This document shows positions 8,901 through 60,186 of a stretch of DNA of 64,000 nucleotides, piece by piece; position 1 is the stretch's first letter; every line of letters begins with the position of its first letter. Below the pieces are notes generated by a model, which was not told the origin of the DNA, searched no databases, and was given only the letters and a program-made list of their open reading frames with translations. Source of the stretch: Coleofasciculus sp. LEGE 07092 (lineage in GTDB: Bacteria > Cyanobacteriota > Cyanobacteriia > Cyanobacteriales > Coleofasciculaceae); NCBI RefSeq assembly GCF_015207375.1, contig NZ_JADEWY010000018.1, positions 1 through 64,000 of the forward strand. Direction: 5' to 3'. A program made the position numbers and the translations under genes.

Positions 8901-9194
8901 TAGTCTTCCCGCATTGCACCACTCATGTCCAGGGGGACGACGAAATCGATCAGTAAATAGATGGGGTCGTTTTCCCGTCAATAGCCACCAAGAGACAACT
9001 AGCCAAAATGCAGTCAGAAAGAATGCTGGCATTCCCAAGCTCAAGAAAAAATTGGTCAGCAGGTAGGCAATTAGAGTCAGTGCTATCCAAGGCAGGATTT
9101 GATTGGCAGGAATAAATCCAATACTTGCCTGCTGACCGAGAATTTGATTGACCTTGATGAAATCTCTATCCGGATTGCGTTTTTGCTTGTCCAT
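5982..9194 (-). CDS. VirB4/TraC-type ATPase with N-terminal VirB3-like membrane hairpin
   Basis: The product has 1070 residues. Residues 18-75 contain two hydrophobic spans after IGFIPANQILPW, the size and topology of a VirB3/TraL/PrgI-like protein. The middle resembles the N-terminal half of VirB4. The ATPase domain has Walker A GESGSGKS near residue 645 and Walker B SLFIGDEL near 880, followed by CLITQDYD and QNMTYKLSGRL, as expected for VirB4/TraC. VirB4 powers pilus assembly and substrate transfer at the inner membrane. No separate VirB3 gene was found nearby, so a fusion is a reasonable reading. It is the largest gene of the transfer operon, 19 bases downstream of the VirB2-like gene. 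Confidence 0.85.
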   Translation of the reverse strand: MDKQKRNPDRDFIKVNQILGQQASIGFIPANQILPWIALTLIAYLLTNFFLSLGMPAFFLTAFWLVVSWWLLTGKRPHLFTDRFRRPPGHEWCNAGRLYVPLTASKRRELFGDSSHQVNNKSKLKPIIISKPRGKGRYKFMPFENEADICCLVEIQKKDRKVSGILLRKGQTYQVVFAFRVKGLHDILYSHEVSAAAQNLEAGFKELPKGEKLTLYCGCHSLDQDRQSELDLAAQNCRFPAISVLIRNEQKRIQELKRAGQRQEWEQILFCTWTANEKAQGQNRDALGKTIDWVTNRWSSFWGTLSGNNLTASEQFYTQLLLKAFESGMIHWEVLLSTKMNLQIRPLQTEEIWHWLWQRFNDTPAPDVPQVLRLVETRNGFKLQEEIRNEKHITSLLIQGEKGRTACPEHRSSPDRVYLTGKGKEVGVLTMFEPPPGWSSIRQQLRFVWDIMSNSYIKDTEAWIELTPGNKFVAIDNLRRISKQSKAARQRSVKKGQGRDVGAELKQQESFEAQARLLQGTKPLKVGAAFLVYRNNVEDLNNACSVLANSFGSAKVIRERNIAWEIWLQTLPITFKWLLHSSQSLSERRLTLDSTTVSGVVPLTIPRSIDNRGIEFISHRGGKPLYVDIMHSDTRRALLVGESGSGKSILGCRFAIEALAYNIPVVGMDISSGGESTFKTFIELLGDDGAYYDISSGSSNLMEPPDLRKFDKKERSRRKESWKESLRRALLAIAMGKIKAPHLQQRVDSILIRMLDVFLKDPEIIKRYNEAFTGGWKSDKWQQMPTLSDLLRFCSRERLNLKNFEDLDKAAINQIHSQISALLASRLGKAVSRPSTFSPNPAIKFFALSGLGNENDAYILAINAHAACMRNALSHPKSLFIGDELSVLFHKEGFANMVGELCATGRKDGISLCLITQDYDTICDASAGAQIMQNMTYKLSGRLTNAGVAAAQRYLNYPPAIISANATESFIPKRSGLYSTWLIEAGGRFWRSRYYPGEMTLACVANHNEEKAARQRVLVQYPNDLIGQLKGLQAFTQAYIPALKDGRGFKHLGRQQDFKNSRNKNFSHVA

Positions 9195-9212
9195 TTCTTT
9201 ACACTCATCTAC

Positions 9213-9860
9213 TTAAGTGCCACCCGCGCCAGAGCCATCACCAATAAAGAGGAAAGTGATTACATCTATTGCCAGAACAATGCCAAACGCTAATCCAATT
9301 TGAGTGACAATGGGTCGCCAGTCGTTGCCCTGCTGTGCCTGGTTATAAGCAAATAATGCGGCAGCTCCAACTAGCAACAGAAATACCCCCCGAATAATGT
9401 TGAAAATGAGGGTAATGGTATCTTCTTGGATTCCTTCTCCACCAGCCGCCTCACCTGCTTGTGAGGCAATATCAATCATGAACTGCTCTAAGCCAGATAG
9501 GAATATTGCTCTCGCTGGCGTGTCGAAAATGCCAAAAACAGCGGTTATTGCAATGATGACACTAGCAATATGCCAAAATCGGATTTTGGCTCCTAACCAC
9601 CGCTCAACAATGGGAATGGCTTTGGCTATGTACCACAAGCCCAGCCCAACTACCGCCGCGAGTCCCCCTACGGCTAAAACGACGGGTTCTTTGATGAATA
9701 GGTAAATTGCCACGCCTCCTAGGATAGAAATGAAGGGGAGATCGGCTGATTTTATCTGATATTGATGGCAAAGTTTTTGCCAAAACAATAGGAATTGTCT
9801 TTCTATTGCGTCGCTTTCAGCAGTACGGGTTCGAGGGAGTACTTTTCGGGAGTCACTCAC
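9213..9860 (-). CDS. Membrane protein, possible VirB2-like pilin precursor
   Basis: The 215-residue product starts at GTG 9860, preceded by AGGAGA seven bases away. It has about five hydrophobic spans; the last two (about 150-172 and 183-208) with the intervening short polar loop (NQAQQGNDWRP) look like the two-helix hairpin of VirB2/TraA pilins. The DTPARA sequence near residue 115 could be a processing site releasing a roughly 95-residue pilin. The gene opens the transfer operon, where virB2 is normally found. An alternative is an unrelated membrane protein with no VirB2 role. The pilin reading is inference from topology and order. Confidence 0.45.
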   Translation of the reverse strand: MSDSRKVLPRTRTAESDAIERQFLLFWQKLCHQYQIKSADLPFISILGGVAIYLFIKEPVVLAVGGLAAVVGLGLWYIAKAIPIVERWLGAKIRFWHIASVIIAITAVFGIFDTPARAIFLSGLEQFMIDIASQAGEAAGGEGIQEDTITLIFNIIRGVFLLLVGAAALFAYNQAQQGNDWRPIVTQIGLAFGIVLAIDVITFLFIGDGSGAGGT

Positions 9861-18571: not shown

Positions 18572-18735
18572 TTTTTAGTCTCCTTTTCGGGGTTTGCCGC
18601 TTGATTGCCATTGCTATGCCTTCAGCTTGCCGTGGCATTGCCGTGGCATTGCCATTTCGCTTCTGGTTTGATGCTAAGATTATTTTGTTCAATTGTCAAT
18701 ACAATTGTTTTTTAAAATAAACAAGAGGACGGTTA
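18572..18735. promoter_or_regulatory. Divergent promoter region with symmetrical CAATTG motifs
   Basis: Two CAATTG sites separated by TCAATA (about 18690-18707) form an inverted repeat. On the minus strand TTGACA overlaps it and is followed after 17 bases by TAGCAT, a plausible promoter for the operon to the left. Directly repeated TTGCCGTGGCA units (about 18627-18650) lie between this promoter and the ATG at 18571 and could be regulator sites. Confidence 0.5.
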
Positions 18736-35923: not shown

Positions 35924-37285
35924 GTGTTCAATCCCGATCAACGCTTAAACGAACGTTATCAACTGCAACAAAAATTAGGACGCACCGCCGCAGGGCGTCA
36001 AACCTGGTTAGCGACTGATCTACAGTCCAACGAACCAGTTACGGTTAAACTGCTGGCATTTAGTCCAGAGATGGAGTGGGACGAACTTAAACTCTTTGAA
36101 CGGGAAGCACAGGTTTTGCAAGCACTCAATCACCCGCGTATTCCGCGTTATCGGGATTATTTTTCTCTAGATCGAGAGACAGGGTTAAATTTGCCGTGGT
36201 TTGGACTGGTGCAAGACTATATTCCCGGTTTTTCCCTTCAAGAATTAGTAGATAAAAATAAACGCTTTAGCGAGGAACAGGTTCGCGCTATGGCTATTCA
36301 AATTCTCGATATTCTGATTTATTTACACGAACTGAGTCCCCCAGTTCTACACCGAGATATTAAACCCAGTAATTTAATTTTAGGGGAAGATAAGCAGGTT
36401 TATCTGGTTGATTTTGGCGCGGTGCAAGCGCAAGCAGCGGTTACAGGAGTCACGTTTACTGTTGTGGGTACGAGTGGTTATGCGCCCTTAGAACAGTTTT
36501 GGGGACGTGCGGTTGCAGCATCTGATTTATACGCCCTAGGCGCTACCTTAATTCACCTGCTAACGGGTACAGCCCCCGCTGACTTACCGCAAAAAGAAGG
36601 ACGCATTCAGTTTCGCGATCGCGTTAGTCTCGATTCTCACTTGATCCGATGGATTGAGCAGATGACTGAAATAACCTTAGAAAAACGTTTTAGCACGGCT
36701 CAACAAGCACTCGAAACCCTTGAATTTGGATGGACTCAACCTGCTAATCCAGCTTTCCGTCCTGAGATGAGCAGAATGGCTCAACCCTCTGGTAGTCTGA
36801 TTAAACTCCACAAGTATCCAGAACGATTAGAAATCACAATCCCAGCTCCTGGAATCAGAAAATTAACTCAATTTGGTTTATTAGATTTTCTCCTGCTTTT
36901 ATATTTATCTCTGGCTGTACTGATAGGTCTTGTTGCAGGCATTCTATCCTTTTTGTCCACTCACTTAAACTATGCATTGTTATTGTCAGGACTTTTAATC
37001 CTTTTATTGTCTCTCCTTGGCAAGTTTTTAGGCGAACGGACTCTTGTTATCTTTGATCGCCACCACAATTGTTTTGAAATTCAGCGACAGACAGGCTTTT
37101 TGAACTATGGGAAGCAACGGCAAAAACTAACAGATATTTGGAGTGTCTTCTTAAATAATCGGGGAACCGTTTATGAAGTCAGGATTCGTTCCCAAGCTCG
37201 GATTCATAGACTGGGTGGAGCTTTGGGTGAAAATGAAAGTGCTTGGTTGCTCCAAGAAATCCAGGATTGGCTGAGTTTCAACTAA
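35924..37285 (+). CDS. Serine/threonine protein kinase with C-terminal membrane hairpin
   Basis: The 453-residue product starts at GTG 35924. Residues 12-270 are a Hanks-type kinase: Gly loop LGRTAAGRQ, ATP-Lys in VTVKLLAF, catalytic loop HRDIKPSNLI near 143, VDFGAV near 163 and GYAPLEQ of the activation segment. Two membrane spans follow (about 320-345 and 350-367) and a C-terminal domain of about 85 residues that may be PH-like. Kinase-then-membrane order with a terminal soluble domain occurs in other cyanobacterial kinases. Substrate unknown. It lies in what looks like a cargo segment. Confidence 0.85.
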   Translation: MFNPDQRLNERYQLQQKLGRTAAGRQTWLATDLQSNEPVTVKLLAFSPEMEWDELKLFEREAQVLQALNHPRIPRYRDYFSLDRETGLNLPWFGLVQDYIPGFSLQELVDKNKRFSEEQVRAMAIQILDILIYLHELSPPVLHRDIKPSNLILGEDKQVYLVDFGAVQAQAAVTGVTFTVVGTSGYAPLEQFWGRAVAASDLYALGATLIHLLTGTAPADLPQKEGRIQFRDRVSLDSHLIRWIEQMTEITLEKRFSTAQQALETLEFGWTQPANPAFRPEMSRMAQPSGSLIKLHKYPERLEITIPAPGIRKLTQFGLLDFLLLLYLSLAVLIGLVAGILSFLSTHLNYALLLSGLLILLLSLLGKFLGERTLVIFDRHHNCFEIQRQTGFLNYGKQRQKLTDIWSVFLNNRGTVYEVRIRSQARIHRLGGALGENESAWLLQEIQDWLSFN

Positions 37286-49185: not shown

Positions 49186-50139
49186 ATGGATAAAGGACAA
49201 ACATCTCAAGCCATGCAAGATGCTGGTGTAGATGAAAGTCTTGCCAAATTAGCGGCAGATATTCTAGACAAGAAACAGCAGGGTAAAGAGCTTTCGGACA
49301 AACAGGAGAAGGCTCTCTATGCCGCTCAAAAGCAGGCGGGAGACGACCTAGATATTAACTCCCTGGTACAGGGGGAACCCCAGGCAGTTGAAGATAAGAA
49401 TGTTGACAAACGACAAGCGTCTCAAGCCATGCAAGACGCTGGCGTAGATGAAAGCCTTGCCAAATTAGCGGCAGATATTCTAGACAAGAAACAGCAGGGT
49501 AAAGAGCTTTCGGACAAACAGGAGAAGGCTCTCTATGCTGCTCAAAAGCAGGCGGGAGACGACCTAGATATTAACTCCCTGGTACAGGGGGAATCCCAGG
49601 AGCCGGAAAGAGACGAAGACGAGCAAGCCTTCATTGAAGGGCAGACAAAAATCTATGAAAAAGCGGGTCTGGAGGCAGAAAAATCCCAAGAAGCTGCAAC
49701 ATTGATGAATAAACAGTTTGGACAACAGCCGTTGAGTTCAGAAGAAAAAAGCCTTGTGAATGAGGCTGAAGCGACGGTACACGAGTCCATTGCCAATAAG
49801 ATAGCTGAACGAAAAGAAATTGCTTCAGTAATGGTAAGCAATGCTCAAGATTTCCTTAAATTTGCCAAACAGGAAGGAATAGCTCAACAGTCGGGCAGTA
49901 GCACCACCGTTGAGGGGAATAATTATGATTTGACTCAAATTGACGATCGCCTTGCTATTCATAATAAAGAAACTGGAGCGGAAGTTATTGCTGATAGCGA
50001 TGAAATTATTAAAGCCGAAGGCGTAACTCAGGAAGATTTAGAAAATTGGCAAAAGGTGGGGGAAATTGCTCAAAAGCAGCAACAGTCTAAAGCCGCGTCT
50101 GTAGAACGAGAGAAGGAAGAAGAAGAGATGGAGTTGTAA
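49186..50139 (+). CDS. Acidic tandem-repeat protein with a C-terminal beta module
   Basis: The 317-residue product contains two nearly identical 58-residue units (7-64 and 79-136; QAMQDAGVDESLAKLAADIL and so on), then a helical region and a small module around 240-280 (VEGNNYDLTQIDDRLAIHNKE). The latter resembles modules in the proteins at 51642-52085 and 59131-60186. The repeats are amphipathic and charged. Function unknown. It lies 40 bases after topA in what may be a single operon. Confidence 0.6.
   Translation: MDKGQTSQAMQDAGVDESLAKLAADILDKKQQGKELSDKQEKALYAAQKQAGDDLDINSLVQGEPQAVEDKNVDKRQASQAMQDAGVDESLAKLAADILDKKQQGKELSDKQEKALYAAQKQAGDDLDINSLVQGESQEPERDEDEQAFIEGQTKIYEKAGLEAEKSQEAATLMNKQFGQQPLSSEEKSLVNEAEATVHESIANKIAERKEIASVMVSNAQDFLKFAKQEGIAQQSGSSTTVEGNNYDLTQIDDRLAIHNKETGAEVIADSDEIIKAEGVTQEDLENWQKVGEIAQKQQQSKAASVEREKEEEEMEL
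49204..49593. repeat. Two near-identical 174-bp coding repeats, 216-bp period
   Basis: Units 49204-49377 and 49420-49593 differ at only a few positions (for example GATGCTGGTGTA/GACGCTGGCGTA), all silent. This is a recent duplication within the gene. Confidence 0.9.
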
Positions 50140-50153
50140 CCCTTATTGCTACT

Positions 50154-51194
50154 ATGCCGCTACAAATCCCAAATCTGATCCTGGATAGATCAAAGCTTTT
50201 CAGTGATCAGCGAAAAACCTATGCCAACCTAACCCGTCATCTGGCAAAGAAGTCGCTACCCACGACGACATTTCACTTGCTAACGGCATTAAGCGCTATC
50301 ATCAGCACCTTTGCCCTTCTCGCCAATAGCAGCGCTTCTCTAATTGGAGCGATGATCATTGCTCCCCTGATGGGACCCATTATCGGCTTCGCTTTCGGTG
50401 TCACGACTAATGATTTGAAGCTGATGCATCGTGCGGCTGCTACTCTGGTCGTTGGTAGCATTAGTGTTATTGTATGTTCAATGCTAATTGCCTCTGGATT
50501 GGGGATAACGATTCCTAGCTCAGAGATTCTAAGCCGCACTAATCCTACTTTGATCGATTTGGGGATTGCGATCGCGGCGGGTATTGCTGGAGCAGTAGCC
50601 CACGCTCGAAAGAGTATTGACCCAGCCTTAGCGGGTGTGGCGATCGCGGTAGCCTTGGTTCCTCCCCTGTCAGTGGTGGGAATTGGCTTGGCTAGTCCGA
50701 TTTCAAATTCCGAAATCGCCTTGGGAGCGGGTTTGCTGTATCTGACCAACCTATCGGGGATGATTTTTGCAGCGGGAATAGTATTCCTGTTTCAAGGGTA
50801 CAGTAGTTGGGAAAGAGCGAGAAATGGGTTCGCTGTTTTGACCGCTGTGGTGTTGGTTGTGTGCATTCCTTTATTTTTCTCGCTGACCACCTTAATTATC
50901 CAGAAAAATTTACAGCACAAAGCCGAAGGATTAATCAACTCTTCAAAATTCTTTAAGAACACTCCTATCGAGCAAGTTGAGGTTTTTCCCAAAAAGAAAG
51001 AAGTTCTTGTCAACCTACGAATCTTAAGTCTGGAAGATGACCCTATTGAAGCTGAAGAGCTTTCCCAGATTCAGCAGCTCTTAGCTAGAGAAATTGAAAA
51101 GCCTGTCACACTTAATGTACGGCTAATTCCCATTCAGGATTATCAGCTCAGGGCAATTAAACAAACGAAGAAATCTCCCGATAAGCTAAATTAA
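50154..51194 (+). CDS. DUF389-family membrane protein
   Basis: The 346-residue product has six or so membrane spans (about 40-245) containing the family signatures SSASLIGAMIIAPLMGPIIG and ARKSIDPALAGVAIAVALVPPLSVVG. The C-terminal part (about 250-346) is a soluble domain. DUF389 proteins are conserved but of unknown function. It follows the tandem-repeat gene by 14 bases and its 3' end overlaps a convergent gene by 38 bp, which is unusual spacing. Confidence 0.85.
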   Translation: MPLQIPNLILDRSKLFSDQRKTYANLTRHLAKKSLPTTTFHLLTALSAIISTFALLANSSASLIGAMIIAPLMGPIIGFAFGVTTNDLKLMHRAAATLVVGSISVIVCSMLIASGLGITIPSSEILSRTNPTLIDLGIAIAAGIAGAVAHARKSIDPALAGVAIAVALVPPLSVVGIGLASPISNSEIALGAGLLYLTNLSGMIFAAGIVFLFQGYSSWERARNGFAVLTAVVLVVCIPLFFSLTTLIIQKNLQHKAEGLINSSKFFKNTPIEQVEVFPKKKEVLVNLRILSLEDDPIEAEELSQIQQLLAREIEKPVTLNVRLIPIQDYQLRAIKQTKKSPDKLN

Positions 51195-51645
51195 TAGCTT
51201 CAAGCCAATGACTAAGCTGACTTTTTTTGACAATTTGTTGCGCTAAAGAAGCGGCATCGGCGACTAGGGAAGGAAGGGGAAATTCAAAAATCAATGACTC
51301 TTCTAGGAGTTCGATTAATCCCCAATTCGCTAGGGTTAGCCCTTCGGCTAAAGCGGTTGTCAGAGAAATATCTCGCTGTGTCGAGTGGTAGTAGAGGAGT
51401 TGCTCCAAGGGCAATTCCTCCAATATTTTGGCAGGAAGAGAGGATGAAATCATGTTGATAGCCTGCTGGATATCCATGTGTGAAATCATGGCTTTAATCC
51501 GCAAGCCCAAGCATCCTAGATATTCATCAGCATCCTCGATGGGAGATTGGTTTGTTGGCAATTCAATGGCGGTTATAGTTTGGATAACCCTTTCTGAACC
51601 GCGAACAATCTGAGCGGAGGAAGGAATCCAATAGGAATTAATCAT
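51157..51645 (-). CDS. Hypothetical protein, free-standing paralog of the overlapping frame at 55656-56135
   Basis: I start at ATG 51645 (MINSYWIPSSAQ), which overlaps the upstream stop in ATGA and has GAGAGGATA upstream; the longer frame to 51675 has none. The 162-residue product is helical. It shares with the 55656-56135 product, in the same order: YWIP/YWMP, TAIELP/TAVEVP, EYLGCLGLRI/EYLQLLGLRV, NWGLIEL/HLGLFWT, FEFPLPSL/VRFPVPVL and HWLEAIN/EWLGAMR. Length is almost the same (162 versus 159). Function unknown. It is translationally coupled to the module protein upstream. Confidence 0.7.
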   Translation of the reverse strand: MINSYWIPSSAQIVRGSERVIQTITAIELPTNQSPIEDADEYLGCLGLRIKAMISHMDIQQAINMISSSLPAKILEELPLEQLLYYHSTQRDISLTTALAEGLTLANWGLIELLEESLIFEFPLPSLVADAASLAQQIVKKSQLSHWLEAINLAYREISSFV

Positions 51646-52085
51646 AGTTCTATATCCTCTCTTTGTTGTGGGCATTCTTCAGGTTCGACCTCCCTATTTT
51701 GTTTGAGATGAGGAGCTAAATTTTCCTCCAGTTGCTCAACATAGTCTTCAGAGAGGTCAGACCCTTGGTCTTTCCACGTTCCATCCTTGTCCTGAATGGC
51801 ATTGAGAGTTTCCGCGCCCTTAACCAACAATCTGTTCCCTTCTAGGGTAGCGATGTTGTTAACCCCCTCTAATTGGTTTGTCCCGGCTTGCTTCATGGCT
51901 TCAACTAGAAGAGGAGCGGCTTTCTCAACTCGCTCTTGCTGAGCAATATTTTCCTGTTGCTCTTGTGAGGAATGAACGTCTTCAAAGTGCTGAAGGGCTT
52001 GCCCTAATTGGGCGACTTTAGTATTAGTAGTTTCCTGAGCAAATGTCTTGCTACGCTCGGATAAGGAAGCAATTAAACCTGGCAT
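51642..52085 (-). CDS. Small helical protein with plasmid beta module
   Basis: The 147-residue product has an N-terminal coiled-coil region (about 5-55) and a C-terminal module (about 60-135): EKAAPLLVEAMKQAG, LEGNRLLVKGAETLNAIQDKDGTWK and SEDYVEQLEENLAPHL. The same order (helix, GxxY/GNR strand, D-x-L strand, WxDxGS, helix) is seen twice in the 59131-60186 protein and once in 49186-50139. No known function. Inverted-repeat copy C lies about 32 bases upstream of its ATG. Confidence 0.6.
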   Translation of the reverse strand: MPGLIASLSERSKTFAQETTNTKVAQLGQALQHFEDVHSSQEQQENIAQQERVEKAAPLLVEAMKQAGTNQLEGVNNIATLEGNRLLVKGAETLNAIQDKDGTWKDQGSDLSEDYVEQLEENLAPHLKQNREVEPEECPQQREDIEL

Positions 52086-54664: not shown

Positions 54665-57600
54665 ATGGGAGTAACTGACAGACAACGACATCACCTTCGT
54701 ACCTCACTGACGAATCATTTTCTCTCTGGTCAGGGATTCGACTCCATCAGTGCTGCCCGGACGTGGGCATCCCAGGAACTAGGACAAGAAACGGAGTTTG
54801 CACCAGGGAGTGCAAATGCTAAAGCACTTGAAGAAACGATTGAAGAGAGCCTGGTTCAGGCAGGTCGCAGGCTGATTGAGGCTGGAGACGACCCAAAGAC
54901 AACCTATCGAAACCTTGTGGATTTGTATCAGCGTCAGCCCAAGCTGGCAACGAAAAGCAGTGGTAGTGTAGCCCGACAAGCGTATTCAACGCCGTTGCCA
55001 GTGGCTTACTTGGCATCAACGATGGCAGGAATTGACCTACAGGGTACTGTTTACGAACCCGCAGCGGGGAATGGGGCGCTATTGATGGGTGCTAACCCCA
55101 TGAAGGTGACGACGAATGAAATTGACCCTGACCGCGCCAGGGCATTGCAAGACCAAGGGTTTAATCCAACAATCCAGGATGCCACAACCTATAAGCCAGA
55201 GCAAAAGCACGATTTTTTAATAGCTAATCCGCCTTTTGGCAGCGTCCGCGATGAGGATAACCCTAAGCCGAATGCTAAAAAGCAGTGGCAGTTTGGCAAA
55301 TTGAAAACTAGCCAGATTGACCACGCTATCTGCCTCAATTCTCTAGAGGCGCTCAAAGACGACGGGAAAGCTGTGTTGATTATTGGCGGCTTAATGGGAG
55401 ATGACCCAGTACAGCGCAGCGATCGCTATAATAGCCTCTCCAATCGCGGATTTTTCAAGCAGCTTTACGATAACTGGAGAGTCACCGACCATTTTACGGT
55501 TAGTGGTGAGTTGTACTCCCGCCAGGGGGCAGGCTTTCCCATTGATATGATTCGCCTCGACGGGCGGGGCAAAAGCCCTCGCCCCTATCCGGCTGCTGAT
55601 GTGCCGCCAATCTATCACAGCTTTGAAGAGTTAGAACAAGAGGTTTTATCGCGTTATGTATCTAGAGAACCCGAATTATTGGATGCCAACCGAAGAGCAG
55701 AGAAAGAAGGAAATGCCGATGCTGTACTTCTGGACGGCAGTAGAGGTTCCCGCTTCGATGAAGTCCATTCCCACGATGAGCGAGTATTTGCAACTGCTGG
55801 GGTTGAGAGTGGCGTGGTTGATTCGCCAAGAACCCCCTTCAGACGCACAGCTCCTGATTCGAGAGGAGATGCCCCTAGGGATGCGGGATGGGATTCTGGA
55901 CGTACTACGGATGCCTCCCAATCCCAACCCCGATTCTTTAGCTCAAGCTTGGGCGAGGGCGTTGGTAGTAGACAATCCGGCAATTCGCAATCATCTGGGG
56001 CTTTTTTGGACGGTGAGATTCCCGGTGCCAGTGCTGAAGGAACCAGAGCAGATAGACGAAGCCAGGGAATTAATACAAGGAATGGCACTAGCCGAGTGGT
56101 TGGGAGCGATGAGGGCAACACCAATCGAGTTCTAAAGGAGGAGAAAATGATGGACAACAAAAATAGTCGGGATTTGCAAGTTCCTTATCAGCCTTTAAGT
56201 CAGGGAAAGCCCCTTAATTCTTTAGTTCCCAAAAATATGTCTGTGGGGATTAGAAATTCTCTGGAGCGCGTGGAAGAGCGACAGGGCAACATTGATGATT
56301 ATGTCGCCTCCGAAATGCAATGGTCTCTTGATGAATTGTATAACAAATTAAGTGCTGAACAAATAGATGCTTTGGCGTTAGCTCTAGATAATAATGAGCA
56401 GGATGCCGAAACTATCCTAGGGGATATGACGGGGATTGGTAAGGGTCGTGTGGTGGCTAGCATGATTCGCAAAGCTAAGCTAGATGGGATGAACCCCATA
56501 TTCGTGACAGAAAATCCCAATCTCTACCGGGATATGCTCAGAGATTTAGCCGATATTGGGGAAGACATTAACCCTTACTATACGGATTCTCAACTCAATC
56601 TGGATACCCTTGAGGGGGGCAAAATTAACTATTCAGCCAAGCAACACAAAGCGGCAGAAGAAACTATATTAAGCACGGGAAGTTTAGGGGATTTTGACAG
56701 CATTTTTACTACCTATTCCCAGATGCAAACCGTTAGAGGGCAAGAACCGGATAGGCGGCAAATTTTACGCAAGTTTGCTCCGGAAGGAATGCTGATTATG
56801 GATGAATCCCATAACGCTGGGGGCAGTGGTGGGGATTTGTATACCCGTTCGGGAATTCCCAATCGAGCTGGCTTTACTCGTGAGCTGAAGCAATCAGCCG
56901 CTCGGACATTTTCGTCCAGCGCTACTTACGCTAAGCGACCGGAGGTGATGGATCTTTATAACCGCACTGACATGAAGAAAGCGGTAGAAGATATTGATAG
57001 CTTGGTGGGAATTATCCAAAATGGTGGCGTTCCCATGCAGCAGGCGCTAGCTTCTCAGTTGAGCGAAGCGGGGCAATACATTCGTCGCGAACGCTCTTAT
57101 GAGGGAGTTGATTTTGATCATACCATTTTCCCGACTGACCGGGAAATGACTGATAGTGAAGCGCAAGTGATGCAAGCCATCATGCAGTTTGACCGTGCAA
57201 AAAATGAGAAAGTTTCGCAGATTGACGAGGAACTTAAAAAAGAGGCAAAGCAAATCCAAGGGGATAGTGCTGTTGGTCAGGTGGGAGCTGAAAGTATAAA
57301 TTTTACCTCGTTGATGCATAATTATTTGGATGCATCAAATCTGGCTAAAAAAACGCAAGGTGCTATCGATTTGGCGAAAGAGTCTTTAGAAAGAGGAGAA
57401 AAGCCAATTCTCACGGTTAGCAATACAATGGGCAGTTTCTTAAGCCAATACGCTGATGAGAATGGGCTACAACCGGGTGAGCGCATTAACGCTGATTTTG
57501 GGGATATGCTCAAGCGATATTTGGAGCGTAGCCGGGATGTTATTACCAAAGATGCATTTGGGGAAAGCAATCGCCGTCGTCTGACTGATGAAGAGTTGGG

Positions 57601-59212
57601 GGAAGCCGGGATACAAGCGTACTCTGAAGCTATCGATCTAATAGAAAAGTCTGATTTCAGTAAGGTTCCTATTAGTCCGATTGACAATATTCGCTTTCAA
57701 CTAAAAGAAGCTGGGTTTAAAACCGGAGAGATTACCGGACGTGACGAGCGGGTGCGTTATGAGCGTGATGAGCAAGGTAATTTAGTAGGTTTTTATGATT
57801 TGCGTCCGGCTTCTGAGAGTTCAAGAGCAGGGAAAGCTCAAGCCGTTGACCAGTTCAACAATGGGGACTCGGATGTGTTAGTCCTTAATCGTTCGGGAGC
57901 CACAGGCATTTCACTGCATTCAAATCAACGATTCAAAGACCAACGCCGTCGCCACATGATTGTGGTACAGCCAGAACGGGATGTCAACCAGGCGGTGCAG
58001 ATGTTTGGTCGGGTTCATCGCACCGGACAGGTCAATGCTCCTCACATCACCATTGGTGCTGGGGATAATCCCAGTGAGAAACGGACGATGGCGATTTTGA
58101 TGGGAAAGCTGGCGTCGCTCAATGCCAATACCACTGCCAGTCGCTCTGGGCAAATTGATTTTGAGAAAGCTACGGATTTTCTCAACGAAGTAGGCGATCG
58201 CGTGGTTCATGAGCTGGTAAGTAATGACCCGGAGCTGGAAGATAAATTGGATTATCCGCTCAAACCTGAGAGTGAGATGGAAGGAACCGCACGGCGGGTA
58301 ACCGGACGCATGGCAATGCTTACCTTGGATGAGCAAGAAGCCTTGATGGAGCGGATTGAGTCTGAATACAAAGATACGTTATCGAGGGAAATTGCCATGG
58401 GCAATAATCCCTTGGAGGCAGAAACTCTGGATTTGGATGCTAAAACGGTTGCATCCATAGAAGTGCAACCCCCCGATCCTGATTCCACCAGTCCGTTTAC
58501 AGGAGCGGTGATTTTCGACGTGATGGACGTGAAAAACAACCGTCAGCCGCTAACGACAATGGAAGCGATGAATGTCGTGCGGTCTGAGTTAGGGTTGGAG
58601 TCGGTGTCTGAACCCGAAGATTTTGACCGAGAAGATGTTGCGGTGGCGGGACAGGAGAATAGCTCTTTGTTAATGGAGCAAATTGATTCGGAGGCTTGTG
58701 ACTGGAAACAGCAGCGCCAAGGCTTATTTAAGACCCAGAATGCCAAGGAAAAGTTTGAAGATAAAATTAATCAGCAAGCCCAGACAGTTAAATGGATTTT
58801 GGAAACACTTCCAGTCGGGCAGACTGTTAAGTTAAAAGCGCCAAATAATTCGGTCTATTATGGTCTGGTAGCAGGGCATCGTTGTGAATCGGCTTCTGGA
58901 GAGAATCCGGTTTCGCCTTCATCGTGGAAGACGGAATTTCTCTTAGCGGATTCAGCCAGACAGATTTCAATTCCCCATTCAAAAATTGGGAATCGCTCTG
59001 GGCAATATGCTGTAGAAGTTCAACAGCAGGATGATTTTGAGGGCAAGGATATTTATTCGCTGTTTGATGAGCGCTCTGGTAGTGGTCGTGAGCTACGGGG
59101 GATGTTCCGGGGGAATCTAGTACGGGCGGGTTGTATGCTACTGGGGAAGATACAGCGCTGGCACGGGAGATGCTGGGGCAAGAGTTACCTGATTTGGAAG
59201 CTCTTTCCTTAG
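54665..59212 (+). CDS. DNA adenine methyltransferase fused in frame to a strawberry-notch-like helicase
   Basis: The open frame encodes 1515 residues. Residues 100-330 are an N6-adenine methyltransferase: EPAAGNG (131-137) binds SAM and NPPF (188-191) is catalytic. Residues 331-490 are a low-complexity linker rich in Ser, Gly, Arg and Asp. From about 495 a helicase of the strawberry-notch/SNF2 type follows: GDMTGIGKGR (about 588), MDESHNAGG (about 711), SGATGISLHSN and MFGRVHRTGQ (about 1090-1125). Such fusions occur in phage and plasmid proteins like P1 DarB, where protection of entering DNA is the known role. The linker is overlapped by another frame, and a strong internal start exists at 56147. 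Confidence 0.8.
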   Translation: MGVTDRQRHHLRTSLTNHFLSGQGFDSISAARTWASQELGQETEFAPGSANAKALEETIEESLVQAGRRLIEAGDDPKTTYRNLVDLYQRQPKLATKSSGSVARQAYSTPLPVAYLASTMAGIDLQGTVYEPAAGNGALLMGANPMKVTTNEIDPDRARALQDQGFNPTIQDATTYKPEQKHDFLIANPPFGSVRDEDNPKPNAKKQWQFGKLKTSQIDHAICLNSLEALKDDGKAVLIIGGLMGDDPVQRSDRYNSLSNRGFFKQLYDNWRVTDHFTVSGELYSRQGAGFPIDMIRLDGRGKSPRPYPAADVPPIYHSFEELEQEVLSRYVSREPELLDANRRAEKEGNADAVLLDGSRGSRFDEVHSHDERVFATAGVESGVVDSPRTPFRRTAPDSRGDAPRDAGWDSGRTTDASQSQPRFFSSSLGEGVGSRQSGNSQSSGAFLDGEIPGASAEGTRADRRSQGINTRNGTSRVVGSDEGNTNRVLKEEKMMDNKNSRDLQVPYQPLSQGKPLNSLVPKNMSVGIRNSLERVEERQGNIDDYVASEMQWSLDELYNKLSAEQIDALALALDNNEQDAETILGDMTGIGKGRVVASMIRKAKLDGMNPIFVTENPNLYRDMLRDLADIGEDINPYYTDSQLNLDTLEGGKINYSAKQHKAAEETILSTGSLGDFDSIFTTYSQMQTVRGQEPDRRQILRKFAPEGMLIMDESHNAGGSGGDLYTRSGIPNRAGFTRELKQSAARTFSSSATYAKRPEVMDLYNRTDMKKAVEDIDSLVGIIQNGGVPMQQALASQLSEAGQYIRRERSYEGVDFDHTIFPTDREMTDSEAQVMQAIMQFDRAKNEKVSQIDEELKKEAKQIQGDSAVGQVGAESINFTSLMHNYLDASNLAKKTQGAIDLAKESLERGEKPILTVSNTMGSFLSQYADENGLQPGERINADFGDMLKRYLERSRDVITKDAFGESNRRRLTDEELGEAGIQAYSEAIDLIEKSDFSKVPISPIDNIRFQLKEAGFKTGEITGRDERVRYERDEQGNLVGFYDLRPASESSRAGKAQAVDQFNNGDSDVLVLNRSGATGISLHSNQRFKDQRRRHMIVVQPERDVNQAVQMFGRVHRTGQVNAPHITIGAGDNPSEKRTMAILMGKLASLNANTTASRSGQIDFEKATDFLNEVGDRVVHELVSNDPELEDKLDYPLKPESEMEGTARRVTGRMAMLTLDEQEALMERIESEYKDTLSREIAMGNNPLEAETLDLDAKTVASIEVQPPDPDSTSPFTGAVIFDVMDVKNNRQPLTTMEAMNVVRSELGLESVSEPEDFDREDVAVAGQENSSLLMEQIDSEACDWKQQRQGLFKTQNAKEKFEDKINQQAQTVKWILETLPVGQTVKLKAPNNSVYYGLVAGHRCESASGENPVSPSSWKTEFLLADSARQISIPHSKIGNRSGQYAVEVQQQDDFEGKDIYSLFDERSGSGRELRGMFRGNLVRAGCMLLGKIQRWHGRCWGKSYLIWKLFP
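55656..56135 (+). CDS. Overlapping gene in the methyltransferase-helicase linker, paralog of 51157-51645
   Basis: The 159-residue frame is offset by one base from the 54665-59212 frame. Its product is a well-formed helical protein: NYWMPTEEQ, TAVEVP, SEYLQLLGLRVAWLI, REEMPLGMRDGILDVLRM, NHLGLFWTVRFPVPVL, ELIQGMALAEWLGAMR. It matches the free-standing 51157-51645 protein in order, spacing and length, while the other frame is low complexity here. The TAA at 56133-56135 runs straight into AAAGGAGGAG for the helicase. AAGAGG lies 12 bases before the ATG, a weak site; reinitiation from the methyltransferase could help. Function unknown. Confidence 0.7.
   Translation: MYLENPNYWMPTEEQRKKEMPMLYFWTAVEVPASMKSIPTMSEYLQLLGLRVAWLIRQEPPSDAQLLIREEMPLGMRDGILDVLRMPPNPNPDSLAQAWARALVVDNPAIRNHLGLFWTVRFPVPVLKEPEQIDEARELIQGMALAEWLGAMRATPIEF
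56134..56149 (+). promoter_or_regulatory. Strong internal ribosome binding site and in-frame ATG for the helicase
   Basis: AAAGGAGGAG is followed after about five bases by ATGATG (56147), in frame with the helicase. Translation here would give a helicase of 1021 residues (MMDNKNSRDLQ). The site overlaps the stop of the 55656-56135 gene, the arrangement of three consecutive coupled genes. Confidence 0.75.
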
Positions 59213-60186
59213 ACTCGTTACAGCAGGCACAGCAACAGCTTGCTGAAGTTTCCACTACAGTTCAATCGGAGGAGCTAGGAGAGGCAGAACGTCAAGGGAC
59301 ACAGACATCTGCAAAAGAATCGGAATCCATTAGCGATAGGGTAGCGCAAGTTAAAAAAGCGAATGAGCAATTCCCACAGGAACAACAACAACCCGAACCT
59401 TCTTTACCTACTGCTGATGTTGATACCGAGGAAATTGAAGCAGTTGAGGAAGGTGAGGCAGAAGGTAAAGGACTCCGTGACAACCCCGACGACTTCCAAC
59501 AGGAGAAGAAGCCTAAGCCTGAGTTAACTCAACCCGCCGATTGGCAAGAGCGGCAGCAGGAACGTGTAGAAGCTATTGCACCTGTTGTCTACCGACATCT
59601 TAAAGACCTGGTTGGTGGCGATCGCTACTGTGGTTCTCATCATACGGCAAGTTTGGATAAAGATGAGGAGGGGCAGCGTCTGATTGTGACAGAGAATCAA
59701 TCCTCCCAAAAGATTCTGGAGGCGCGGCAAAAGAGTGATGGTTCGTGGCACGATATCGATAGTAACTTGGATGACAACAACGTTCAGCATTTTAGGCAGA
59801 TAGCCGCCTCGCAAGAGGAACTCCTGTCAAAAAAAGGTGCGATTGAGGATAAAGTTGAGCAGCAGAATCGGGTTGATAAGATGGCTCCCACTATCGTCAA
59901 ACACCTGAGCTTGGTGAATCGGCTCTCTGTCAAGGGGAACTCTTACAGTTCTAAATTAGACCCAGAAAAATCAGAGTTAACCCTATCTGAAAACGCCACA
60001 GAAAAGCCGATTTTAAAGGCAAGATTTATCCAGGATAGGTGGCGAGATAATGGCAGTGAAATTGATGAGAAAACTCTAGAGTTTTTTGAGAACTCTGTAA
60101 AGCCCAAGGTTGAGAAAGCGTTGGCGCAGCGCTCTCAACGGGAACGCCTTGAACGGCAAGAAAAAGAGGCACAGTATAGTCTGTAG
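59131..60186 (+). CDS. Acidic protein with two copies of the plasmid beta module
   Basis: The frame opens at about 59092 and its first usable start is TTG 59131 (LYATGEDTALAREML), overlapping the helicase end by 82 bases. The 351-residue product has an N-terminal helix, an acidic disordered part (about 45-130), and two modules: about 145-225 (VEAIAPVVYRHLK, DKDEEGQRLIVTEN, GSWHDIDSNLDD) and about 245-330 (VDKMAPTIVKHLS, VKGNSYSSKL, DRWRDNGSEID). The start is uncertain; a frameshift from the helicase or later ATG (REML) is possible. Role unknown. Confidence 0.6.
   Translation: MYATGEDTALAREMLGQELPDLEALSLDSLQQAQQQLAEVSTTVQSEELGEAERQGTQTSAKESESISDRVAQVKKANEQFPQEQQQPEPSLPTADVDTEEIEAVEEGEAEGKGLRDNPDDFQQEKKPKPELTQPADWQERQQERVEAIAPVVYRHLKDLVGGDRYCGSHHTASLDKDEEGQRLIVTENQSSQKILEARQKSDGSWHDIDSNLDDNNVQHFRQIAASQEELLSKKGAIEDKVEQQNRVDKMAPTIVKHLSLVNRLSVKGNSYSSKLDPEKSELTLSENATEKPILKARFIQDRWRDNGSEIDEKTLEFFENSVKPKVEKALAQRSQRERLERQEKEAQYSL

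Follow-up and report, generated by a model that had tools for sequence, protein, structure and literature searches.

A gene nested out of frame between the methyltransferase and strawberry-notch helicase modules of mobile elements, and its free-standing relatives

Antirestriction-type proteins form a class that has been known since DarB of bacteriophage P1. DarB, which shields P1 DNA from type I restriction, is the archetype of the methylase-helicase dyads, or polyvalent proteins (Iyer et al. 2017, PMC5512222), and a small P1 protein, Ulx, is described as aiding its localization (PMC9024508). Another P1 gene, iddB, is described as 'internal to ddrB' (PMC10695390), and for phages that encode giant DarB-like proteins the JC1 paper, in its available sections, reports that the P1 helper proteins have no homologues (PMC9144972). 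A hidden out-of-frame gene within a phage DNA methylase is found in the ShiLan insertion, which specifies an HNH endonuclease (Arsenault et al. 2025, PMC11855218).

Here we describe a gene, termed B, that lies out of frame inside a gene of mobile elements for a methyltransferase and a strawberry-notch translocase, together with a free-standing paralogue, A, on the same contig. The terms 'overlap' and 'alternative reading frame' are absent from the accessible text of PMC5512222, and no paper on the nested gene was found in the literature searched, which lay mostly outside subscription journals. On balance we favor the view that B is a genuine gene that acts as a dedicated partner of the enzyme pair in whose gene it resides.

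The nested gene and its free-standing paralogue

The window is the whole stretch of DNA that was analyzed, 64,000 nucleotides of contig NZ_JADEWY010000018.1 from Coleofasciculus sp. LEGE 07092. It is part of a cyanobacterial contig carrying conjugation genes (for a TrbI-like protein and a TrwB/TraD coupling protein), and the conjugative element also holds a protein kinase-like gene at 35924-37285 (Pkinase, E=1.9e-30). The host gene of B (54665-59212, plus strand) encodes 1515 residues in which domain matches identify an N6-adenine methyltransferase (N6_Mtase, residues 178-240) and a strawberry-notch helicase (AAA_34, 560-828; Helicase_C_4, 1021-1186), all in one open reading frame (ORF). Its C-terminal extension is broken (59131-60186), with a change of frame downstream of residue ~1499; the relative L015 matches over residues 1-1499 in frame 2 and over residues 1760-1972 in frame 1 (59539-60183), and the host gene of the window ends early.

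B (55656-56135, plus strand, 159 aa) occupies the +1 frame of this gene and is identified as a nested gene by its nested relatives, selection tests and a predicted fold; a Shine-Dalgarno-like AAGAGG (55638-55643, plus strand) lies 12 nt 5′ of its ATG. Across B the host frame (55655-56134) is read as a low-complexity linker of ~160 residues rich in G, S, R and D. Directly after the B stop, AAGGAGGAG and a host-frame ATG (56135-56149, plus strand) mark a possible separate start for the helicase. A host-frame ATG occurs at most about 60 nt after the B stop in 66 of 131 copies, with a Shine-Dalgarno motif in 29 of those 66; a separate helicase product from such a start is possible, though it would not be general.

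The free-standing copy, A (51157-51645, minus strand), consists of 162 codons and a stop, with a Shine-Dalgarno-like AGAGAGGA 5′ of its ATG (51655-51662, minus strand); translation from another ATG in the same frame, at 51675, would yield 172 aa instead. Homology, a profile match and the predicted fold identify it as a paralogue of B. The frame that would correspond to the host frame contains nine stops, the plus strand across the gene is riddled with stops, and no long gene overlaps A except for ~40 bases in common with the opposing gene 50154-51194. A gene of 147 aa (51642-52085, minus strand) lies directly upstream and overlaps the start of A by four bases (ATGA), and the two genes probably form an operon. 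The 147-aa product has no significant match in Pfam, NCBIfam or PHROGs. A 317-aa protein encoded at 49186-50139, which carries two near-identical tandem units of ~70 residues each near its N-terminus, has an acidic C-terminus that by eye is similar to that of the 147-aa product.

The first-pass annotation of this DNA had proposed from shared motifs that the two proteins are a related pair, and this is confirmed. Both frames are present with the lengths of 162 and 159 residues, and the motifs are real. The pair has a Smith-Waterman score of 106, a value that none of 5000 shuffles reaches (mean 29.9, maximum 61; z=15.5), and BLASTP aligns them with 38/151 identities (E=6e-9), which rules out chance similarity. 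The two are reciprocal best matches among the 84 stop-to-stop frames of at least 100 aa in the window, and A is recovered at E=2.5e-12 by a profile built from eight nested relatives only. AlphaFold2 models show the same order of elements in both, with B as a compact, mostly helical domain (pLDDT 92.9, pTM 0.89; A, pLDDT 91.3, pTM 0.86). The models, which predict one common fold, are only partly independent, as each input alignment held the other's sequence.

Among 63 relatives of B the conserved positions are W9, P11, R51, P123, L145 and W148. That the family had not been recognized is borne out by the library searches, in which none of the 63 matches Pfam, NCBIfam, PHROGs or PADLOC and A and B themselves have no meaningful match in the first three. 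Comparison with known folds gave nothing convincing (best Foldseek E against the PDB, 3.2; best VIA-align Z, 3.4; best BFVD E, 1.5), nor did comparison with the sequences of solved structures.

Distribution of B and selection on the overlap

Used alone as a query, B matched 8 of 97 genomes including its own (E<=0.01), some of these by chance; its own genome holds a second nested copy that is 75% identical. A founding profile was built from eight nested sequences, taken from the genome matches (the window's own copy among them) and Chroococcidiopsis plasmid pB; in each of them B is read in the same frame within the same host gene. Of 388 cyanobacterial genomes, 42 gave a match to this profile and 57 a match to the AAA_34 model. 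Following up the profile search for further copies that had been suggested at the outset, neighborhoods were retrieved, and 72 nested cyanobacterial copies were defined in them, 47 at first and 25 in loci missed by the first profile. No retrieved cyanobacterial host of the plasmid type lacked B when its linker was intact. The cyanobacterial hosts of this type without B are three loci cut by a contig edge (L101, L102 and L137) and one that lacks the methylase side (L117), and B is likewise absent from eight canonical strawberry-notch loci (L125-L132).

A wider search with an alignment of the host helicase found 364 loci in genomes and 340 viral loci in IMG/VR, and 80 of each were examined. An iterated profile detected B in relative frame 1 in 121 of these 160 loci (E<1e-3), one of which (L147) duplicates the indel copy L078, and relative frame 1 is the frame of all recognized nested copies. 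Besides many viral contigs, the 121 include loci labeled Desulfovibrio, Falsiroseomonas, Paracoccus, Sediminimonas, Rhodospirillales and Desulfobacteraceae; these host taxa are tentative, as several labels come from metagenome bins. The description of the pair as a plasmid family therefore holds only in part, in that the family does occur on plasmids and is also nested in viral contigs and in several bacterial groups, and free-standing on chromosome-like contigs.

Thirty-eight loci of the wider sample showed no B match at E<1e-3, seven of them without the methylase side. Among the other 31, diverged loci that bear a linker, 29 have a +1 ORF of at least 90 aa, and seven also have a third-frame ORF of that length; selection signals were mixed in ten pairs from diverged loci, and the 29 ORFs were left out of the B count. 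In records of isolated phages, tblastn with B and with a viral B gave no match among 50,697 records, and the helicase part as query gave three matches. One of these, Bacteroides phage BS-TP4, has a 121-aa +1 ORF in its linker, over which its annotation table lists no separate CDS. No +1 ORF or B was seen in Acinetobacter phage MD-2021a (one of two records examined), which, like two Bacteroidales loci, is a deep relative of the host that lacks B. The linker +1 ORFs of Vibrio (L216/L217), Prevotella (L218) and phage BS-TP4 (L300) measure 121-139 aa, some with a W.P motif, and are possibly distant forms of B.

Several individual loci deserve mention. L078 (the second copy in G400:C1), like L147, carries B and the helicase part in one frame (a 1993-aa ORF) and has lost the usual C-terminal end of B, a natural indel close to the end of B. 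In L133 (G174:C63) B is open and matches at about 1e-51, although the host gene is split into several ORFs. Four candidates were rejected as copies: L009, a nuclease-like ORF in another context and without the motifs; L010 and L011, with in-frame stops and opposed long ORFs; and L014, with a match of only 28 residues. On plasmid pAQ6 of Picosynechococcus PCC 7002 (L302), an unannotated copy lies at 8953-9504 of the locus, corresponding to about 100513-101013 on the minus strand of the plasmid record, inside SYNPCC7002_RS15125, with a GAGGA motif before its ATG. No separate CDS at B appears in the annotation tables of Chroococcidiopsis pB, PCC 7002 pAQ6 and NIES-970 plasmid 3, with the reservation that the plasmid annotation table is known to be incomplete.

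The claim that the overlapping frame is a real gene is supported by four kinds of evidence. In a host-fixed randomization, the host protein was kept and its synonymous codons were redrawn (200 resampled and 200 permuted controls, the tested cluster being left out of the profile). The real B exceeded all 400 controls in 23 of 23 cyanobacterial clusters, where it scored 44-141 bits compared with 2-26 for the best of 200 resampled and 7-41 for the best of 200 permuted sequences, and likewise in 24 of 24 phage and other clusters. Substitutions provide the second signal. Pooled over 29 pairs, differences per host codon position 1/2/3 are 0.161/0.110/0.443 in the flanks and 0.301/0.157/0.133 in the overlap, and the window compared with its nearest nested relative gives 0.223/0.154/0.550 and 0.531/0.212/0.144, respectively. 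The freely changing position in the overlap is thus host position 1, which is position 3 of B, so that the overlap DNA changes in the manner of a B gene; a few of the closest pairs, considered singly, show this shift weakly or not at all. The third signal lies at the starts of B, which are ATG in 123 of 130 copies and are preceded by a four-base Shine-Dalgarno motif in 111 of 130 and a five-base motif in 90 of 130. The corresponding control frequencies are 7.6% and 1.0% at 18574 ATGs, and 12.2% and 2.2% when the same picking rule is applied to random +1 windows. These results show that B is under purifying selection independent of the host protein. The confidently predicted compact fold of B is the fourth line of evidence.

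The host frame was examined in 165 nested copies (131 of them non-identical), made up of 46 cyanobacterial copies and 119 from the wider set, with some contigs in both; the 25 later-found cyanobacterial copies are not included as such. It contains no stop in any of the 165, compared with 1-18 stops in each of the eight free-standing copies, and the third frame is never open across the nested copies (mean 12.6 stops). When B was held fixed and its codons were redrawn in the 23 cyanobacterial clusters, 20 clusters had no trial among 200 with an open host frame, and the remaining three had 1, 7 and 8 such trials; openness is thus selected. The permuted form of this control is weaker, with the host frame open in 106 and 45 of 200 trials in two clusters and in 0-17 elsewhere. 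The linker sequence exceeds all 200 resampled controls in six of the 23 clusters and all 400 in two, and hence is not wholly unconstrained, but apart from staying open it is shown to be scarcely conserved. We strongly infer that B is the gene under constraint where the two overlap, and that the host linker is an out-of-frame reading of B that covalently joins methylase and translocase. The term 'overprinted', which the first-pass annotation had applied to B, is therefore probably the reverse of the actual relationship, since substitutions in the overlap follow the codons of B and the linker is barely conserved beyond its openness.

Free-standing copies and the order of events

Eight free-standing copies were found: A; L062; L065, L067 and L088; and L094, L095 and L100. 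In L094, L095 and L100, B is a separate gene directly upstream of a host gene with the helicase module first, and in L095 and L100 a methylase match follows the helicase. The helicase tree places this group inside the nested cyanobacterial clade, as sister to the nested loci L020/L021/L207/L209 (support 0.999), and the B tree places it likewise (0.918). The B tree also groups L065/L067/L088 with the nested loci L061/L063 (0.92), joins A to the nested lineage of the window itself (0.79; 0.46 for its nearest neighbor), and places L062 only weakly. From these partly weakly supported trees, the free copies seem to descend from nested ones through about four escapes. The first-pass annotation had taken the occurrence of the protein in two contexts as independent support for the overlapping frame; A is probably an escaped nested copy and not independent evidence of a separate origin (support for its exact position, 0.46-0.79).

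The neighbors of L062, L065, L067 and L088 look chromosomal by eye (ATP synthase, ferritin-like and glycosyltransferase genes). In two genomes (L065 and L067) the free B adjoins ATP synthase genes and one for a ferritin-like protein, an apparent chromosomal domestication. Three of these four loci are carried by genomes G106, G165 and G286, in which AAA_34 has no match at E<=1e-6.

Role of B and comparison with known systems

We propose with moderate confidence, as the simplest account, that an internal start on the host mRNA would serve for the translation of B and that the product would act as a dedicated small partner of the methylase-translocase pair. The partner role is suggested by the presence of B in all intact linkers of the sampled cyanobacterial clade, by B distances that follow those of both modules (Mantel correlations over 85 loci: B and methylase, 0.46; B and helicase, 0.53; methylase and helicase, 0.60), and by its persistence beside the permuted helicase. 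B might dock between the modules, assemble or restrain them, or load the enzyme pair on DNA or into a virion or conjugation channel, so that incoming DNA would be modified ahead of restriction. A and the other free copies would then be escaped genes that kept the function of B without the overlap. Somewhat short of an even chance is given to the fuller picture of a widespread three-part DNA-modifying machine of mobile elements. In that picture the third subunit lies concealed within the coding sequence of the two enzymes, and their fusion exists because its reading frame passes out of frame through the third gene. The fusion would have taken place across a gene that stayed whole and functional, plasmids and phages of several bacterial groups would have retained the layout, and the free cyanobacterial copies would be escaped subunits. 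Some deep host relatives lack B, and the window's own host gene is interrupted near its C-terminal extension, both of which count against the preferred reading. At least three genomes (G106, G165 and G286) have a free-standing B without an AAA_34 match, which speaks against partnership and indicates that B may act without the enzyme pair.

Those same genomes lend substance to a different reading, that B is a cargo gene with a job of its own, for example as an anti-host or counter-defense factor, and does not bind the enzymes. The position of A in its own small minus-strand cluster and the usually acidic character of B (median net charge -10, n=119) would also fit. We regard this as unlikely, given that nearly all host genes of the clade with an intact linker keep B, that B co-varies with both modules, and that it still adjoins the helicase after the modules are permuted. 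A better case, yet one we still judge rather improbable, can be made for B having been overprinted within an older host linker, with the host frame first and a regulatory function for B. Basal relatives (L301; L212 and L214) carry the enzyme pair but no B, and the free-standing copies are derived, as this order of events would have it. The overlap itself points the other way, with a host frame little constrained beyond openness and a confidently predicted compact fold for B, and the root of the helicase tree lies on a very long branch (3.37), a weak footing for deciding whether B or the fusion came first.

Two further explanations carry far less weight. B could be a selfish insertion, a ShiLan-like out-of-frame homing endonuclease in a methylase gene, and the layout is indeed alike, in that a phage methylase gene keeps its own frame open through a gene lying out of frame, in the described parts of that system (PMC11855218). 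This is highly improbable for B, whose 63 members include no match to HNH or any other nuclease family, whose conserved residues are W, P, R, L and W instead of catalytic His or Asn, and which is near-universal rather than patchy, with distances that follow the host. Finally, the B frame could be a by-product of amino-acid conservation in the host and no gene at all. Genes rich in G+C often contain overlapping open frames, and in several G+C-rich phage loci the +1 frame was open by chance in up to 152 of 200 trials. The similarity to B was never reproduced by host-fixed randomization (47 of 47 clusters), which rejects host conservation as its source, and this explanation would also have to account for the codon-position shift and the Shine-Dalgarno statistics, so that its probability is negligible. 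The preferred interpretation remains that of a genuine gene whose product is probably a partner of the enzymes.

Long overlaps between bacterial genes on one strand seldom win acceptance, since the cases are usually young or known from one strain. The overlap described here is old, as its frame and site are shared by cyanobacterial plasmids, viral contigs and several other bacterial groups, and it rests on independent signals together with natural controls in the form of eight un-nested copies with stops in the host-type frame. B adds to the antirestriction-type proteins a family without a match in the libraries searched, and it suggests that methylase-helicase enzymes work with a so far unsought partner, an ancient protein that annotations appear to have missed. 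The locus also provides a test bed for the fusion of two proteins through a third gene, and pAQ6 of PCC 7002 offers a laboratory model in which B is testable.

Among described systems, the host gene of B is of the dyad kind, an adenine methylase fused to a SWI2/SNF2-type ATPase and found in phages and on plasmids, as far as the dyads are covered in the accessible text (PMC5512222). P1 DarB matches SNF2-rel_dom and not AAA_34 at E<=0.01, whereas the host of B has AAA_34, and the three +1 ORFs of DarB (85, 177 and 128 aa) were discarded as nested copies, none being B-like by eye. Ulx, in the portions of its description at hand, is similar to B in size, and its gene adjoins the darB methylase-helicase gene; unlike B, it is a separate neighbor and is not nested (PMC9024508). 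No similarity was seen between B and the single Ulx sequence compared (hhalign probability 0.3%), and the analogy is one of role only. iddB shares with B the character of an internal gene and belongs to a phage antirestriction operon, but its host is ddrB and not the methylase-helicase gene (PMC10695390). ShiLan, in the parts of the report consulted, is like B a whole gene lying out of frame in a methylase gene whose own frame stays open throughout, as it does around B in 165 of 165 nested copies (PMC11855218). The two differ in that none of the 63 members of the B family matches HNH or another known nuclease, and in that ShiLan is patchy whereas B is near-universal in its host gene and co-evolves with it. 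In contrast to ShiLan as described there, B lies between two enzyme modules and is found on plasmids, in phages and as a free-standing gene.
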